A stretch of 21,955 nt of DNA from a virus: positions 1 through 21,955 of IMG/VR virus record IMGVR_UViG_3300025131_000489. The stretch is one strand, 5' to 3'. The position numbers were made by a program, and so were the translations under genes. Each line of letters opens with the position of its first letter. The stretch's first letter is position 1. The notes beneath the pieces were generated by a model. The model ran no database searches. It was not told the DNA's origin and saw only the letters and a program-made list of their open reading frames with translations. Shown in pieces: positions 5,528-21,955 of the stretch.

Positions 5528-7378
5528 TCAGAGTGAGGAAAAGAACCCAAGCTCGAGCAACTCTGACTCCACGTCCGAGTGCTCGTCGGAGTCTTCATCC
5601 ACCAATTCCGATACCGTGCTCCACTTGGGAGGGGCACCCTCCTCCCGTGGCTTCTCGTCGTTGTAGAGCAAGTCCAGATCGTAGTGCTCATCGTGCAGGG
5701 CGCATGCGATCATGAAGGAGAAGACGTAGTCGTCGTTCTCGCCTGGCTGCGCCTCGCACCGCATGCCATCCACCCAGACAAAGTTGGAGAGTTGCGTCAC
5801 CAGCTTGTCGTCGTGGATGATCACCGAGGTGGAGTCCGACCGCAGGGCTTTGCGGGCCGCCGAGACCAGCATCGGACGGGTCTTTGCGGTGGTCTCCCAG
5901 CCCAGCTTGTTCCTGATCAACTTGCCTTCAGCGCGGCTCCACTCCAGTTCCCGGTAGATGTTGGGGTAACTGAGTTTGCGGAGTTCCTTGAGCGTGGTCT
6001 TGCCGTAGGTGTTGGACTCCGGGCAGACGATGGCGTTGTTGTAGAAGCGACCCAGGATGTCCATCAGGACACCCACTTCATCTGGGTCTGGCTTGCCGAT
6101 GTAGGCAGCGCATTGCTCGATCGCCCTGCCGCGCCGCGCCCAAGCGGTGATGACGCTGAAGTCGTCGCCGGTCCCGCCGCCGCAGATGTCCGCAGTTATT
6201 ATATAGCGGGTGCCCTCTTCTGGATCGAGCCAACCCTCAAACTGCCCCACCTCGGTCTCGGTCTTGAAGATGGTCGGTCCTTTGTCGGACAGGTCGAACC
6301 TGGTCGATGGGAACAGGTGCTTGTTCTGGGCTGCGAGGAACTTGGCTGCGAAGACCTGGCGCCCGCTGGCGAGGAAGCAGGACACATCGTCGTCGGGGTA
6401 CTCTTGGAGCATGCGCTCTTCGTCACCGTCGCAGACGTTCCGGTAGCAGTAGCACCACCACAGCCATTGCCCGCAGGACAGGTCGTAGGTCTCGATCCGG
6501 TTGCTGCTGTCCTCAAGGAACCCGCCGGCTTCCCTGTCTGAAGCCCTGCCGTGCTTGCGCCACTTCCGCCAATGCCCCAGAACTGTCGGAGCCGGCTTGA
6601 TGGTGTTCTTGGGCACCGCATGCCAGGGCACAAACCAAGCCTTGAACTCGCTCTCCCCGTTCTTCGCACGCATGTACTCGTCGTAGAAGTACCCGCCTTT
6701 GCCGCAGGGGGAGGATTCAAGGATGATGATGCGCCAGGGTCCGAGGCGGGCACCCATGGCCGATTTAACAGCTGTCACCAGCTTCTTTGGGGCTGCGTAG
6801 AACGCCACCTCCGAGAAGTGGACGGCTTGCAGGGTCTTGGATCGCCCCTTCTTGGCGGCGACTGCCGAGGTGCCGGCGGTTGCGATGCGGACAAAGGACC
6901 CGTTCTTGTAGTGGACTCCGAGCTTCCGGGCCGAGCGGTCCACCTCCGGGCGCACGTCCGGGGACATCTTGGAGTACATGAAGGTGTACTTCTCAAGCAG
7001 GGTGTCGGTGGAGTCGTCATCGTGACTGATAACCATGGCCCGGTAGTTGTCCATGAAGATGGTCAACCAAGACAGGAGAGCGGCAACCCAGGTGGAGAAT
7101 CCGGCCTCCTGGCGCAGTTTGAGGATGACCATCAGCAGCGGTCTGCCTGCGAGGAGCTCGCGCAGGGCGTGCCTGGTGGCTCGGACTTGCGGCGGGTTGA
7201 GTACAAACGGGATGACGTTGGAGTCTGCATCGACGATCTTGACCTCCTGCTCGCAGAAGAAGACGAAGTCCTCTGCCAGTTGGAGGATGTACTGCTCGTC
7301 GAACTCGGTATCTGACAGGACTGACAGTTCGTCTGCCACAGCCTCTTCGACGATCTCTTCAAAGATGTCTTGCTTCAC
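5528..7378 (-). CDS. terL: Terminase large subunit (packaging ATPase/nuclease)
   Basis: A 616-residue packaging motor protein. The ATPase half shows the N-terminal Q-type motif (FVLNPPQVRA, about residues 58-67), a Walker A variant (LKLRQEAGFST, 86-96), a Walker B-like AVHFSE (185-190) and a coupling segment LESSP (about 220-224). An EYPDDDVSCFLASG motif (about 326-339) precedes the nuclease half. The RNase H-like nuclease shows ITADICGGGTGDDFS (Asp397), CPESNTYG (Glu454) and GENDDYVFSF (Asp549/550). I chose GTG 7378-7376: it overlaps the previous stop as GTGA, whereas the longer frame from ATG 7489 would read through 110 bp of the upstream gene. It cuts concatemeric DNA and drives it through the portal. 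Confidence 0.92.
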   Translation of the reverse strand: MKQDIFEEIVEEAVADELSVLSDTEFDEQYILQLAEDFVFFCEQEVKIVDADSNVIPFVLNPPQVRATRHALRELLAGRPLLMVILKLRQEAGFSTWVAALLSWLTIFMDNYRAMVISHDDDSTDTLLEKYTFMYSKMSPDVRPEVDRSARKLGVHYKNGSFVRIATAGTSAVAAKKGRSKTLQAVHFSEVAFYAAPKKLVTAVKSAMGARLGPWRIIILESSPCGKGGYFYDEYMRAKNGESEFKAWFVPWHAVPKNTIKPAPTVLGHWRKWRKHGRASDREAGGFLEDSSNRIETYDLSCGQWLWWCYCYRNVCDGDEERMLQEYPDDDVSCFLASGRQVFAAKFLAAQNKHLFPSTRFDLSDKGPTIFKTETEVGQFEGWLDPEEGTRYIITADICGGGTGDDFSVITAWARRGRAIEQCAAYIGKPDPDEVGVLMDILGRFYNNAIVCPESNTYGKTTLKELRKLSYPNIYRELEWSRAEGKLIRNKLGWETTAKTRPMLVSAARKALRSDSTSVIIHDDKLVTQLSNFVWVDGMRCEAQPGENDDYVFSFMIACALHDEHYDLDLLYNDEKPREEGAPPKWSTVSELVDEDSDEHSDVESELLELGFFSSL

Positions 7379-8034: not shown

Positions 8035-8397
8035 CTAGGGGAGGTCTTTGCACATGTCCCGCGTGAACCCGGCGGGCAGACAATCACAGCACCCCATGCT
8101 CTTGACCAGTTCAATCGCTGGCAGGCACGCCTCGCCCTCGGTCACCACACAAGCGGTGGCAGCGGCAGCGGTCGCTGCGCTGCAATAGGCTGTCTGCCAC
8201 CAAGCGCAGCCCATGAGCAACGACCCCGGTGCAGTGAGCTTTGCCTTGCAGGCTGGCTCTTTCTTGCACTCGCCAAGGTGCATGACGATCTTGTCAAAGC
8301 GGGTCGCCTCGGCTGCGGGCGCTGCGGGTGCTTTCTGTTCGCTGCACGAAGTCAGCATGAGGCTCAAGCCAACCATCAGAATCATGAACGCTCTCAT
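8035..8397 (-). CDS. Cysteine-rich lipoprotein
   Basis: A 120-residue predicted lipoprotein. The start ATG 8397 has AAGGAG placed 6 bases upstream; a longer in-frame ATG (8451) lacks this. The signal peptide MRAFMILMVGLSLMLTSC has a positive n-region, a hydrophobic core and the lipobox LTSC, so Cys18 should be lipidated after signal peptidase II cleavage. A short Ala/Pro linker follows, then a mature part with ten further cysteines in a compact ~75-residue region (including CKKEPAC, CAWWQTAYC and GCCDC), suggesting a disulfide-stabilised exported domain. Candidate roles by family knowledge are superinfection exclusion at the cell surface or an outer spanin, though spanins are not normally this cysteine-rich. 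Function is unproven. Confidence 0.7.
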   Translation of the reverse strand: MRAFMILMVGLSLMLTSCSEQKAPAAPAAEATRFDKIVMHLGECKKEPACKAKLTAPGSLLMGCAWWQTAYCSAATAAAATACVVTEGEACLPAIELVKSMGCCDCLPAGFTRDMCKDLP

Positions 8398-8453: not shown

Positions 8454-8927
8454 TTACGACACGCTCAACGTGCCTGTTCCGCTAATGTCGGCCATGTCGG
8501 CACCCTCAGTGACACCGACAAAGGTTCCATACAACTTCCCGTGCGTACTGAACAGCGAAAAGGTCGCCATACCCTCGACAACGTCCACCGCAACGCAGGT
8601 GAAGTGACACTTGCCCGCAACGGTTTTTGGGTTCACTAAGAATGTCCCTGCCACTGGCGCTGTGAACGCACCGAAATCCCAACTGAATCCCGATGCGTTG
8701 AAGCTGACAGCGCACTCATACGTCCCGGCCACCGCCAGCGTGCAGTCCAGCACATAGTATAGTGCCCCCGCACAACTTAACAGCCCAGCACCCACGCCGA
8801 ACCCGTCACCGAGGGCAAGCAGGTGTTGATTAGCCTTAGCGACATCAGAGCCAGCAGGTGTTGCCTTTATCCGTTCGATCTGTTTAGCCAACGCTTGCTC
8901 TGCCATCTTGACAAGCATGTCAGACAT
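8454..8927 (-). CDS. Hypothetical beta-rich protein with helical N-terminus
   Basis: A 157-residue protein. Residues 1-30 are helical and charged (MAEQALAKQIERIKA). The rest alternates short hydrophobic and Gly/Thr stretches expected of beta strands (CTLAVAGTYECAVSFNASGF, then FGAFTAPVAGTFLVNP) and ends in TGTLSVS. The FTAPVAGTF segment weakly recalls the C1q/TNF-like jelly roll seen in some phage fibre heads, but the rest of that signature is missing. A good ribosome site (AGAGG) lies 3 bases before the ATG, and the gene overlaps the upstream stop by 8 bp. A small virion decoration or receptor-binding protein is conceivable; I assign no function. Confidence 0.6.
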   Translation of the reverse strand: MSDMLVKMAEQALAKQIERIKATPAGSDVAKANQHLLALGDGFGVGAGLLSCAGALYYVLDCTLAVAGTYECAVSFNASGFSWDFGAFTAPVAGTFLVNPKTVAGKCHFTCVAVDVVEGMATFSLFSTHGKLYGTFVGVTEGADMADISGTGTLSVS

Positions 8928-16851: not shown

Positions 16852-17720
16852 TGGGATTCGCAGTTCTACCTACACACATCGTCCGCGACCCGTCGATCCC
16901 GGTGGCAGCCAAGGGTTTGCTGCTGGTGTTGTCCAGCTATGCCAGCAACGACGGCAAGTCCTGGCCCAGCCTCGCCACCCTCGCCAACAACCTGGGGCAG
17001 AGTCCGCGCCAAGTGCAGCGTCAACTCCGCCGGCTGGAGCAGGGCAACTGGATCAAGGTGATGCGCCGGGTGGCTACCACCGGGGCCAACCAGTCCAGCC
17101 TCTACGTTCTGAACTTCGACCGATGGGATGGAGATCAAAGGGAATTGACAGATGTGTCAGGGGAGGGTGACAAATCTGACACAGGGAGGGGGACAAATCT
17201 GTCAGGGGATGGTGACACCAGTGTCGGGGGGATGGTGACACCAGTGTCACCCAATCAAGACCATATGATCAAAACCAACCAACAACCTGATCTGATCCCA
17301 CCCGCCAAGAAGAAGAAGTTCAAGGTGCCCGAGGCTGAAGAGGTTGCTGCCTTCTTCTCCATCAGCGGCAGCACCAAGGTCGAGGCTGACAAGTTCTTCG
17401 ACTACTACGAGAGCAAGGGGTGGACGGTGGGCAAGTCGCCGATGAAGAGTTGGAAGGCTGCCGCCCGCAACTGGATGAGGAACGCCAAGACCAACGGCTA
17501 CTCCTCCTACGCACCACCCAAGCGCAGCGCCGACCCTACCCGCAATCGGTGCCGGCCCGAGCCGCCACCGCCTGGCGACGAAGAGGTCTCCAAGGGCATC
17601 GAGCAACTGCTCGAGCAGTGGGACGCATGGACACCAGAGCAACGGCAGGAGCAACTCGCCAAGAAGGCTTGGCGCAATGCGTTCCTGCCCATCATTGAGA
17701 AGCACAGGAAGGTATCATGA
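16851..17720 (+). CDS. Phage replication initiator with N-terminal winged helix (lambda O-like role)
   Basis: A 289-residue protein. Residues 1-95 form a winged-helix domain of the phage replication-organiser type (LPTHIVRDPSIPVAAKGLLL, then WPSLATLANNLGQSPRQVQR as the helix-turn-helix, then GNWIKV as the wing). Residues about 98-155 are a Gly/Asp/Thr/Ser-rich linker whose DNA carries the iterons. A basic PPAKKKKFKVPE segment leads into a C-terminal domain with FFDYYESKGWTVGKSPMKSW and WKAAARNWMRN, a segment I know from many phage replication proteins, and a helical tail. By analogy with lambda O, the first domain binds the iterons and the rest recruits a helicase or loader. No helicase gene is in the window. 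It overlaps the genes on both sides. Confidence 0.8.
   Translation: MGFAVLPTHIVRDPSIPVAAKGLLLVLSSYASNDGKSWPSLATLANNLGQSPRQVQRQLRRLEQGNWIKVMRRVATTGANQSSLYVLNFDRWDGDQRELTDVSGEGDKSDTGRGTNLSGDGDTSVGGMVTPVSPNQDHMIKTNQQPDLIPPAKKKKFKVPEAEEVAAFFSISGSTKVEADKFFDYYESKGWTVGKSPMKSWKAAARNWMRNAKTNGYSSYAPPKRSADPTRNRCRPEPPPPGDEEVSKGIEQLLEQWDAWTPEQRQEQLAKKAWRNAFLPIIEKHRKVS
17146..17251 (+). repeat. Five iterons inside the initiator gene: candidate replication origin
   Basis: Five copies of a TGACA-N4-TGTCA-type inverted repeat start at 17146, 17168, 17191, 17213 and 17236, a regular 22-23 bp spacing. Copies 1 and 5 are perfect. Copy 2 has TGACA as right arm, copy 3 GGACA as left arm, and copy 4 TGTCG as right arm. 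Copy 5 extends to GGTGACAC-CA-GTGTCACC (17234-17251). G/A-rich spacers of the GGGGAGGG or GGGGATGG kind separate copies. An A-rich, duplex-destabilising tract (about 17252-17298) follows. Iterons within the linker region of an initiator gene, then AT-richer DNA, is the lambda ori layout. Confidence 0.75.
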
Positions 17721-18073
17721 CCGACAAGAAGACCGAGACCGTTGAAGCCATCGAGCCCGAGGCAGCGCCCGAGGCAGCGCCCCGCTACGCCCTCTTCGCA
17801 GTGCGCCAGCCCACCGGCATCGGCTTTGCCATCCTTGAGGTGCCCGCCGACAAGAAGCCTGAGGATGTGGGGCAGGGAGCCCTCGTTGCGGTGGTCAGCG
17901 GACACAAGGAGCACTGCGAGATGCTCTGCAACATGCTGGCGGAGTCCTTCTCGATGGGCTTTCAGCTTGGGCACAACGAAGGCATGAAGACCAACCGCAA
18001 GGATCGCCGGGCCTCCACCAAAGAGGGTGGTCTGATCATGCTGCCCAAGCACCTCAAACCTGTTGACCATTAG
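17717..18073 (+). CDS. Hypothetical protein following the initiator
   Basis: A 118-residue protein. The N-terminal ~25 residues are acidic and low complexity, including an EAAPEAAP tandem produced by a 12-bp duplication (17756-17779). The middle is compact (RYALFAVRQPTGIGFAILEV and a helix with CEMLCNMLAESFSMGFQLGH). The C-terminus is basic (KTNRKDRRASTKEGG). Start and preceding stop overlap as ATGA, so it is coupled to the initiator. Lambda's gene P (helicase loader) follows O in the same way, but this protein has no recognisable loader features and is much shorter, so I do not assign that function. Confidence 0.6.
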   Translation: MTDKKTETVEAIEPEAAPEAAPRYALFAVRQPTGIGFAILEVPADKKPEDVGQGALVAVVSGHKEHCEMLCNMLAESFSMGFQLGHNEGMKTNRKDRRASTKEGGLIMLPKHLKPVDH

Positions 18074-18092
18074 CATCGAGTTAGCATATAAT
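18063..18092 (+). promoter_or_regulatory. Strong candidate promoter with a direct-repeat operator
   Basis: TTGACC (18063-18068; five of six matches) and a perfect TATAAT (18087-18092) are separated by 18 bases. The spacer holds two copies of TTAGCAT (18070-18076 and 18081-18087), 11 bp apart start to start, so they face the same side of the helix. A transcript would begin near 18099, just before AGGAGG (18104-18109), and serve the annealing protein/SSB genes. This is the best promoter match in the window. Confidence 0.65.
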
Positions 18093-21134: not shown

Positions 21135-21955
21135 AGTGGGCAAGCTGTTGCAGCGGCATAGGAGCGCCAGAGGTGGCATGGTCCGGTCTGGGCTGGGATC
21201 ACCGATGGTGCAGCGAGATCGACAAGTTTCCAAGCGCCGTGCTGGCGCACCACTGGCCCAACGTGCCCAACTTGGGCGACATGACAAAGGCGGTAGACCA
21301 TGAGCGATTCGAGACAATTAACCTTCTTGTCGGAGGTACGCCCTGCCAGTCGTTCAGTATCGCAGGCAAACGCCTCGGACTGGACGATCCCAGAGGAGGA
21401 CTGGCCCTCGCGTATCTCAAGCTGGCTCGCGACTGTGGCGCCCGTTGGATCGTCTGGGAAAACGTGCCCGGCGTCCTGTCGTCTGACGGAGGGCGGGATT
21501 TTGGAGCCTTCCTCGGAGCGTTGGGCGAGCTCGGGTATGGGTGGGCGTACAGAATCCTGGACGCTCAATACTTCGGAGTGGCCCAGCGCCGCCGCCGTGT
21601 CTTCGTTGTCGGACATCTTGGAGACTGGAGACGTGCCGCAGCGGTACTTTTTGAGCCCGCGAGCCTGCGCGGGGATTTTGCGCCGCGCAGAGGCTCGCGG
21701 GAAGGTGTTACCGTTGGCGCTGGATCGGGCGCTCACCCAGGCGGTTTCAACGGACAAGACGCCTACAACGGACAGTTGATCGCTGCGAGAGAGAGTGGCC
21801 CAGGCTGGTGGATGGAGGACGACAAGGCCGGCCCGCTTCGCGCAGAGGGAGAGAACAGACCAAGCCGACCATCTCACATCATCGCCCATACCCTCGGCAC
21901 GCAATGTGGAGGGGCAACAGAGGACGGCACCGGGCGCGGCGCACCGCTGGTGCCG
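21131..21955 (+). CDS. C5 cytosine DNA methyltransferase (Dcm-like), C-terminus cut by window edge
   Basis: An open frame of 275 codons from ATG 21131 to the window end. The canonical C5 motifs are present: motif I SCCSGIGAPEVAW (5-17), motif IV GGTPCQSFSIAG (68-79) with catalytic Cys72, motif VI WENVPGVLSS, and motif VIII QYFGVAQRRRRVFVVGH. After that comes a Gly/Asp-rich region, probably the target-recognition domain, then ATEDGTGRGAPLVP, typical before the last motifs of phage enzymes. Motifs IX-X lie outside. Unlike the short homologue at 11509, this looks fully active. The start overlaps the resolvase stop (ATGA). It probably protects phage DNA from restriction; the target site cannot be read from the sequence. 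Confidence 0.9.
   Translation, partial: MKWASCCSGIGAPEVAWSGLGWDHRWCSEIDKFPSAVLAHHWPNVPNLGDMTKAVDHERFETINLLVGGTPCQSFSIAGKRLGLDDPRGGLALAYLKLARDCGARWIVWENVPGVLSSDGGRDFGAFLGALGELGYGWAYRILDAQYFGVAQRRRRVFVVGHLGDWRRAAAVLFEPASLRGDFAPRRGSREGVTVGAGSGAHPGGFNGQDAYNGQLIAARESGPGWWMEDDKAGPLRAEGENRPSRPSHIIAHTLGTQCGGATEDGTGRGAPLVP

Follow-up and report, generated by a model that had tools for sequence, protein, structure and literature searches.

A palindrome array inside the gene of an HTH_36 initiator is a probable replication origin of an uncultured phage and covaries with the initiator's recognition helix

INTRODUCTION

The replication origin of phage lambda, ori-lambda, lies in the middle of gene O, adjoins an AT-rich region and is bound by the N-terminal part of the initiator. 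Iteron changes that spare the protein still abolish replication (PMC4488673, PMC7466680). The origin boxes of the pSK41 plasmid are likewise located centrally inside rep, where they encode a dispensable linker. In the staphylococcal plasmid pPR9, a pfam13730 N-terminal domain and an origin region stand in place of their pSK41 counterparts, and the pPR9 mini-replicon is autonomous and compatible (PMC5703833). The iterons of geminiviruses keep their position and pattern but diversify in sequence, tied to the cognate Rep (PMC12548392).

Here, we analyzed 21,955 nucleotides of phage DNA (IMG/VR record IMGVR_UViG_3300025131_000489; hereafter, the window), in which an initiator gene contains an array of TGACA-N4-TGTCA-like palindromes. 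As in lambda O and ori-lambda, including their Stx-phage variants, the candidate origin occupies a central part of the initiator gene, where palindromic iterons recur and an AT-rich region comes next. However, the window protein has an HTH_36 N-terminal domain and a different C-terminal domain, and its sites are 14 bp long, of TGACA type and 22 to 23 bp apart, whereas lambda iterons measure 19 bp. The pPR9 replicon likewise has an N-terminal domain of the HTH_36 type, which is related to a phage replication protein and was exchanged together with the origin region (PMC5703833), but pPR9 is a plasmid and its pSK41-type C-terminal domain is unrelated. RepA_N initiators such as pSK41 Rep resemble the window initiator in having binding boxes inside the linker stretch of their gene and in a weak fold match (E, ∼0.004 to 0.01), but not in sequence. 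Geminivirus Rep is an unrelated rolling-circle initiator and provides only an analogy.

RESULTS

The initiator gene and its surroundings

The features of the locus are listed in Table 1. The gene product scored 49.2 bits against PF13730 (curated cutoff, 25) and matched O-like families of PHROG, including the replication initiation families given in the table. Pfam matches up to an E value of 0.01 included neither PF04492 (Phage_rep_O) nor a RepA_N domain. Thus, the analogy with lambda drawn by the initial annotation is valid for the anatomy (iterons and an AT-rich tract following the N-terminal domain within the gene) and for the probable mechanism, but it does not extend to a Phage_rep_O match.

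Table 1. Coordinates of the initiator gene, its domains and the palindrome array in the window
Feature	Position	Strand	Remarks
Replication initiator gene, 289 aa	16851..17720	+	HTH_36; PHROG 270, 678, 8540, 1032 (replication initiation)
HTH_36 winged-helix domain, aa 17-68	16899..17054	+	Pfam PF13730, E=4.5e-13; confident AlphaFold2 fold
Start of recognition helix, R53-Q54-V55-Q56-R57	17007..17021	+	Covary with iteron bases in relatives; model helix 52-64
Iteron 1, TGACAGATGTGTCA	17146-17159		0 mismatches to TGACA-N4-TGTCA
Iteron 2, TGACAAATCTGACA	17168-17181		1 mismatch to TGACA-N4-TGTCA
Iteron 3, GGACAAATCTGTCA	17191-17204		1 mismatch to TGACA-N4-TGTCA
Iteron 4, TGACACCAGTGTCG	17213-17226		1 mismatch to TGACA-N4-TGTCA
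Iteron 5, TGACACCAGTGTCA	17236-17249		0 mismatches to TGACA-N4-TGTCA
A-rich tract after array, probable DNA-unwinding element	17254..17298	+	60% AT, top 0.3%; relatives A-rich at same position
C-terminal domain, aa 150-217, motif GW-VGK--MK-WKAAARNW	17298..17501	+	PHROG 15768; also in initiators with other N-terminal domains
C-terminal helical pair, aa 243-288	17577..17714	+	AlphaFold2 model

AlphaFold2 modeled a confident winged helix at residues 8 to 90, a linker predicted to be disordered at about residues 91 to 150 and a confident three-helix C-terminal domain at residues 162 to 214, followed by the final helical pair. Sequence searches of the PDB returned weak, generic winged-helix matches, CRP among them; for the C-terminal domain, they gave no meaningful match. 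Foldseek placed 4pql, 4pt7 and 5kbj among the best matches of the model, at the weak E values mentioned above. These structures are titled as initiators or Rep-DNA complexes, which we take to be RepA_N proteins. MarR- and CzrA-type repressors were also matched. We propose that the C-terminal domain (residues 150 to 217) contacts the replicative helicase or its loader. No gene for either was recognized among the window genes scanned.

Portal-protein relatives with a named host came mostly from Arthrobacter, Microbacterium or Cellulosimicrobium phages (∼22% identity), which makes an actinobacterial host plausible. Elsewhere in the window, a strong match to a sigma-70-like promoter (TTGACC-N18-TATAAT, 11/12) spans 18063 to 18092, where the gene at 17717 to 18073 ends and the next one starts, and a 28-bp G+C-rich repeat is present twice, in imperfect form, at 21649 to 21701, close to where the fragment ends on the right.

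A palindrome array in the linker-encoding stretch

The initial annotation had described five TGACA-N4-TGTCA-like palindromes recurring every 22 to 23 bp in this gene, with palindromic arms and G-rich spacers. We confirmed this description: each of the five 14-bp sites is within one mismatch of the motif, start-to-start distances are 22, 23, 22 and 23 bp, and the spacers are rich in G. The array encodes residues 99 to 133, inside the segment predicted to be disordered and between the winged helix and the C-terminal domain. At up to one mismatch, codon shuffling of the gene gave a mean of 0.018 sites and a maximum of 2 (n = 2,000), compared to the 5 present, and random synonymous recoding of the same protein gave a mean of 0.19 and a maximum of 2 (n = 3,000). 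Therefore, neither composition nor protein sequence accounts for the array. The peptides encoded at the five sites, LTDVS, DKSDT, GTNLS, DTSVG and VTPVS, differ because a single DNA motif is read in two frames, which assigns the repeat to the DNA and not to the protein.

The whole window contains 8 TGACA-type sites, compared to 0.67 expected from dinucleotide shuffles. The three additional palindromes, one of them exact, lie in the leftward terminase region (7313 to 7326, 8283 to 8296 and 8909 to 8922) and may be secondary sites for the initiator or have arisen by chance.

Since TGACA contains TGA, a stop codon when in frame, the palindrome can be read in just two of the three frames. Accordingly, 168 exact sites from distinct genes were distributed as 48 and 120 in the two open frames and 0 in the third. 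Steps of 22 bp always left from one open frame (14/14) and steps of 23 bp from the other (26/26). The alternation in the window thus moves between the two open frames, avoiding the forbidden one, and averages 22.5 bp without a stop. This rule is unavoidable once the frame is intact and is no independent finding, but it accounts for the spacing that was first noted.

The A-rich tract reported 3' of the array is real but modest: A makes up 42% of its 45 bp, and its AT content, 60% compared to 39% for the genome, ranks in the top 0.3% of 45-bp windows. Cumulative GC skew over the 22-kb fragment is flat around the initiator gene.

The DNA pattern alone retrieves HTH_36 initiators

We scanned IMG/VR for two exact TGACA-N4-TGTCA sites 5 to 12 bp apart, using no protein information. 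The scan yielded at least 120 loci, compared to 11 for a control pattern with reversed letters. Among the matches listed, 88 of 120 loci (70 of them distinct) had the array inside a frame encoding an HTH_36-like domain, and the first site was located a median of 22 residues past that domain. We then scanned 71 proteins, namely, 67 ORFs over arrays, the window protein and three known relatives; PF13730 was matched by 53 of them, and PHROG 270, "replication initiation protein," also by 53. In 44 of 53 genes, the 60 bp after the last site had a higher AT content than the remainder of the gene (0.60 versus 0.51), with an A fraction of 0.42 and a T fraction of 0.18.

The other 32 of the 120 loci, again among the matches listed, could not be assigned to an HTH_36 gene and are unexplained or truncated. 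They include L131, L073, L074, L026 and L098, whose TGACA arrays lie outside the HTH_36 frames that were detected; in locus L054, the array is just past an HTH_36-like frame. Such arrays may belong to truncated genes, intergenic origins or another system.

Iterons persist in protein relatives while the linker drifts

A direct search of IMG/VR returned no close relative of the window initiator, phage records contained only distant ones, and a plasmid search gave a single match, to the C-terminal part. An alignment of 11 N-terminal sequences was too diverse to serve as a query. Among loci collected by N-terminal similarity, 17 of 28 had either a TGACA array or an array of palindromes that was found de novo and exceeded codon shuffles. 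In the actinophage-like family, also collected by N-terminal similarity, 69 of 75 had a linker array at a lenient cut with six shuffles per locus. The linker peptides of array-bearing HTH_36 relatives are very different, and the half-site sequence varies from phage to phage, but the linker position and the spacing (∼19, 23 and 24 bp) are kept. The initial annotation had asked whether the iterons persist as the linker protein drifts, and they do. One family of initiators (L365 to L439) occurs on many contigs of ∼15 to 18 kb, a size that suggests small complete phages or satellites; its linker arrays keep a spacing of ∼19, 24 and 23 bp but have many different half-sites.

Retrieval with the C-terminal domain gave mostly proteins with other N-terminal domains, and 159 of 160 loci lacked two or more TGACA sites; the sole exception had an HTH-type N-terminal domain. 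Two loci combine a window-type C-terminal domain with another N-terminal domain and have different arrays at the corresponding place: L010 has TCCGGA units every 11 bp (1479 to 1522), and the linker of L013 has palindromes of CTGCA type at 23-bp distance. It looks as though the origin had been exchanged along with the N-terminal domain. The iteron type thus goes with the N-terminal domain. Most HTH_36 genes sampled from bacterial genomes had no array. An HTH_36 domain is therefore no sufficient sign of an origin, and Arg at helix positions 1 and 5 did not by itself predict an array in these genes.

The recognition helix covaries with the iteron bases

A second DNA-only scan, with TGTCG-N4-CGACA, gave 20 loci, 16 of which had the array in an HTH-like frame; two scored weakly, and the remaining 14 (E < 1e-3) were used. 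All 69 distinct TGACA proteins had Arg at position 5 of the recognition helix (R57 in the window), but none of the 14 TGTCG proteins did; these had Lys, Asn, Gln, His or Trp. Among actinophage-like family members, which were sampled by protein and partially overlap the TGTCG scan, position 5 was Arg in 11/11 TGAC cases and 1/15 TGTC cases. The HMM that located the domains was trained partly on TGACA genes; as it also recovered Lys-type genes, its training does not create the Arg/Lys contrast.

In a tree of 26 actinophage sequences built without the recognition helix, residue and base changed 8 times each, in parallel. Six independent pairs on well-supported branches, in a tree of limited branch support, gave 5.5 changes in the same direction and 0 in the opposite one (P = 0.03). 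A tree of 105 N-terminal domains had too weak support for this test.

We also compared every half-site base with every domain column over 57 distinct loci, with no preselected positions. The top associations, whose z-scores are inflated by shared descent, linked base 1 to helix position 4, base 3 to position 5 and base 2 to position 1. With Arg at position 4, base 1 was G in 8/9 loci; with Gln, it was T in 32/41 and C in 9/41. The resulting putative code pairs Gln4 mostly with T1, Arg4 with G1, Arg5 with TGAC and Lys5 with TGTC, and, from very few cases, Ala5 with TGAT and Thr5 with TGAA. Exceptions exist, such as N at position 2 with TGACA. The window helix, RQVQR over TGACA, fits the pattern, as do 69 of 69 others with Arg at position 5. 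This sequence covariation makes it very probable that the recognition helix binds the array located within its own gene.

Alternative explanations

The main rival holds that the palindromes are operators through which the HTH_36 protein mainly regulates transcription of its own operon, replication starting elsewhere. Palindromic sites and winged-helix folds are indeed typical of transcription regulators, as the MarR- and CzrA-type fold matches recall. Yet the sites lie ∼300 bp inside the gene, away from a promoter position, and we found no sigma-70-like promoter near them. In addition, the relatives match replication initiation families, multiple evenly spaced sites with an A-rich tract fit an origin, and the functional pPR9 replicon has an initiator whose N-terminal domain is HTH_36 (PMC5703833). 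We therefore consider a mainly regulatory role improbable; autoregulation through the same sites may nevertheless coexist with an origin role.

TGACA-type palindromes resemble the sites of several regulators, and the array might be bound by a host or another phage regulator instead of the encoded protein. Such a regulator would hardly explain arrays placed after the HTH_36 domain in unrelated phages, with base identity tracking the HTH_36 recognition helix, and we judge this very unlikely. Finally, several relatives have similar-looking linker peptides, as would be expected if the repeats were a by-product of a repetitive Thr/Ser/Gly/Asp-rich linker with no DNA role. We rejected this explanation, which retains almost no credibility: the 22- and 23-bp spacings are not multiples of 3, the motif encodes different peptides in two frames, synonymous recodings never exceeded two sites and the bases covary with the recognition helix.

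DISCUSSION

We conclude that the array at 17146 to 17249 is, with high probability, a set of five iterons for the winged-helix domain encoded by its own gene, forming with the A-rich tract the replication origin of the phage. Anatomy, family annotation and precedent point to this function. The origin proposed by the initial annotation gained support from the DNA-only retrieval of HTH_36 initiators, from the linker arrays of relatives and from the A-rich tract found across the family.

An HTH_36 plasmid replicon is already known in pPR9, and by analogy the window origin would work like that of lambda O. A dimer of N-terminal domains would sit on each palindrome, and several such dimers, with about two helical turns from site to site, would wrap the DNA. 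The A-rich tract would then open, and the C-terminal domain would recruit the replicative helicase or its loader. Almost any peptide works in the disordered linker, which is probably why the array resides in the stretch encoding it.

The helix-to-base code appears to be new, as we found no earlier description of it in the open-access literature. We think it reasonably likely that helix positions 1, 4 and 5 set half-site bases 2, 1 and 3, that this one-gene cassette diversifies into private origin specificities across diverse phages and that the stop codon TGA limits the array spacings. With the sites written into the initiator gene, key and lock would pass on as a single cassette, and every phage seems to have its own matched pair within one gene.

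The array is a signature by which candidate origins can be located in the genomes of uncultured phages from DNA alone, and it gives a winged-helix family with poor annotation a set of predictable binding sites. In the same 100 bases, the function of the DNA, the disorder of the protein and the genetic code clearly constrain one another. Finally, the covariation hints at how phages may escape origin cross-talk with initiator and origin still matched, since one gene holds both and they can be exchanged together.
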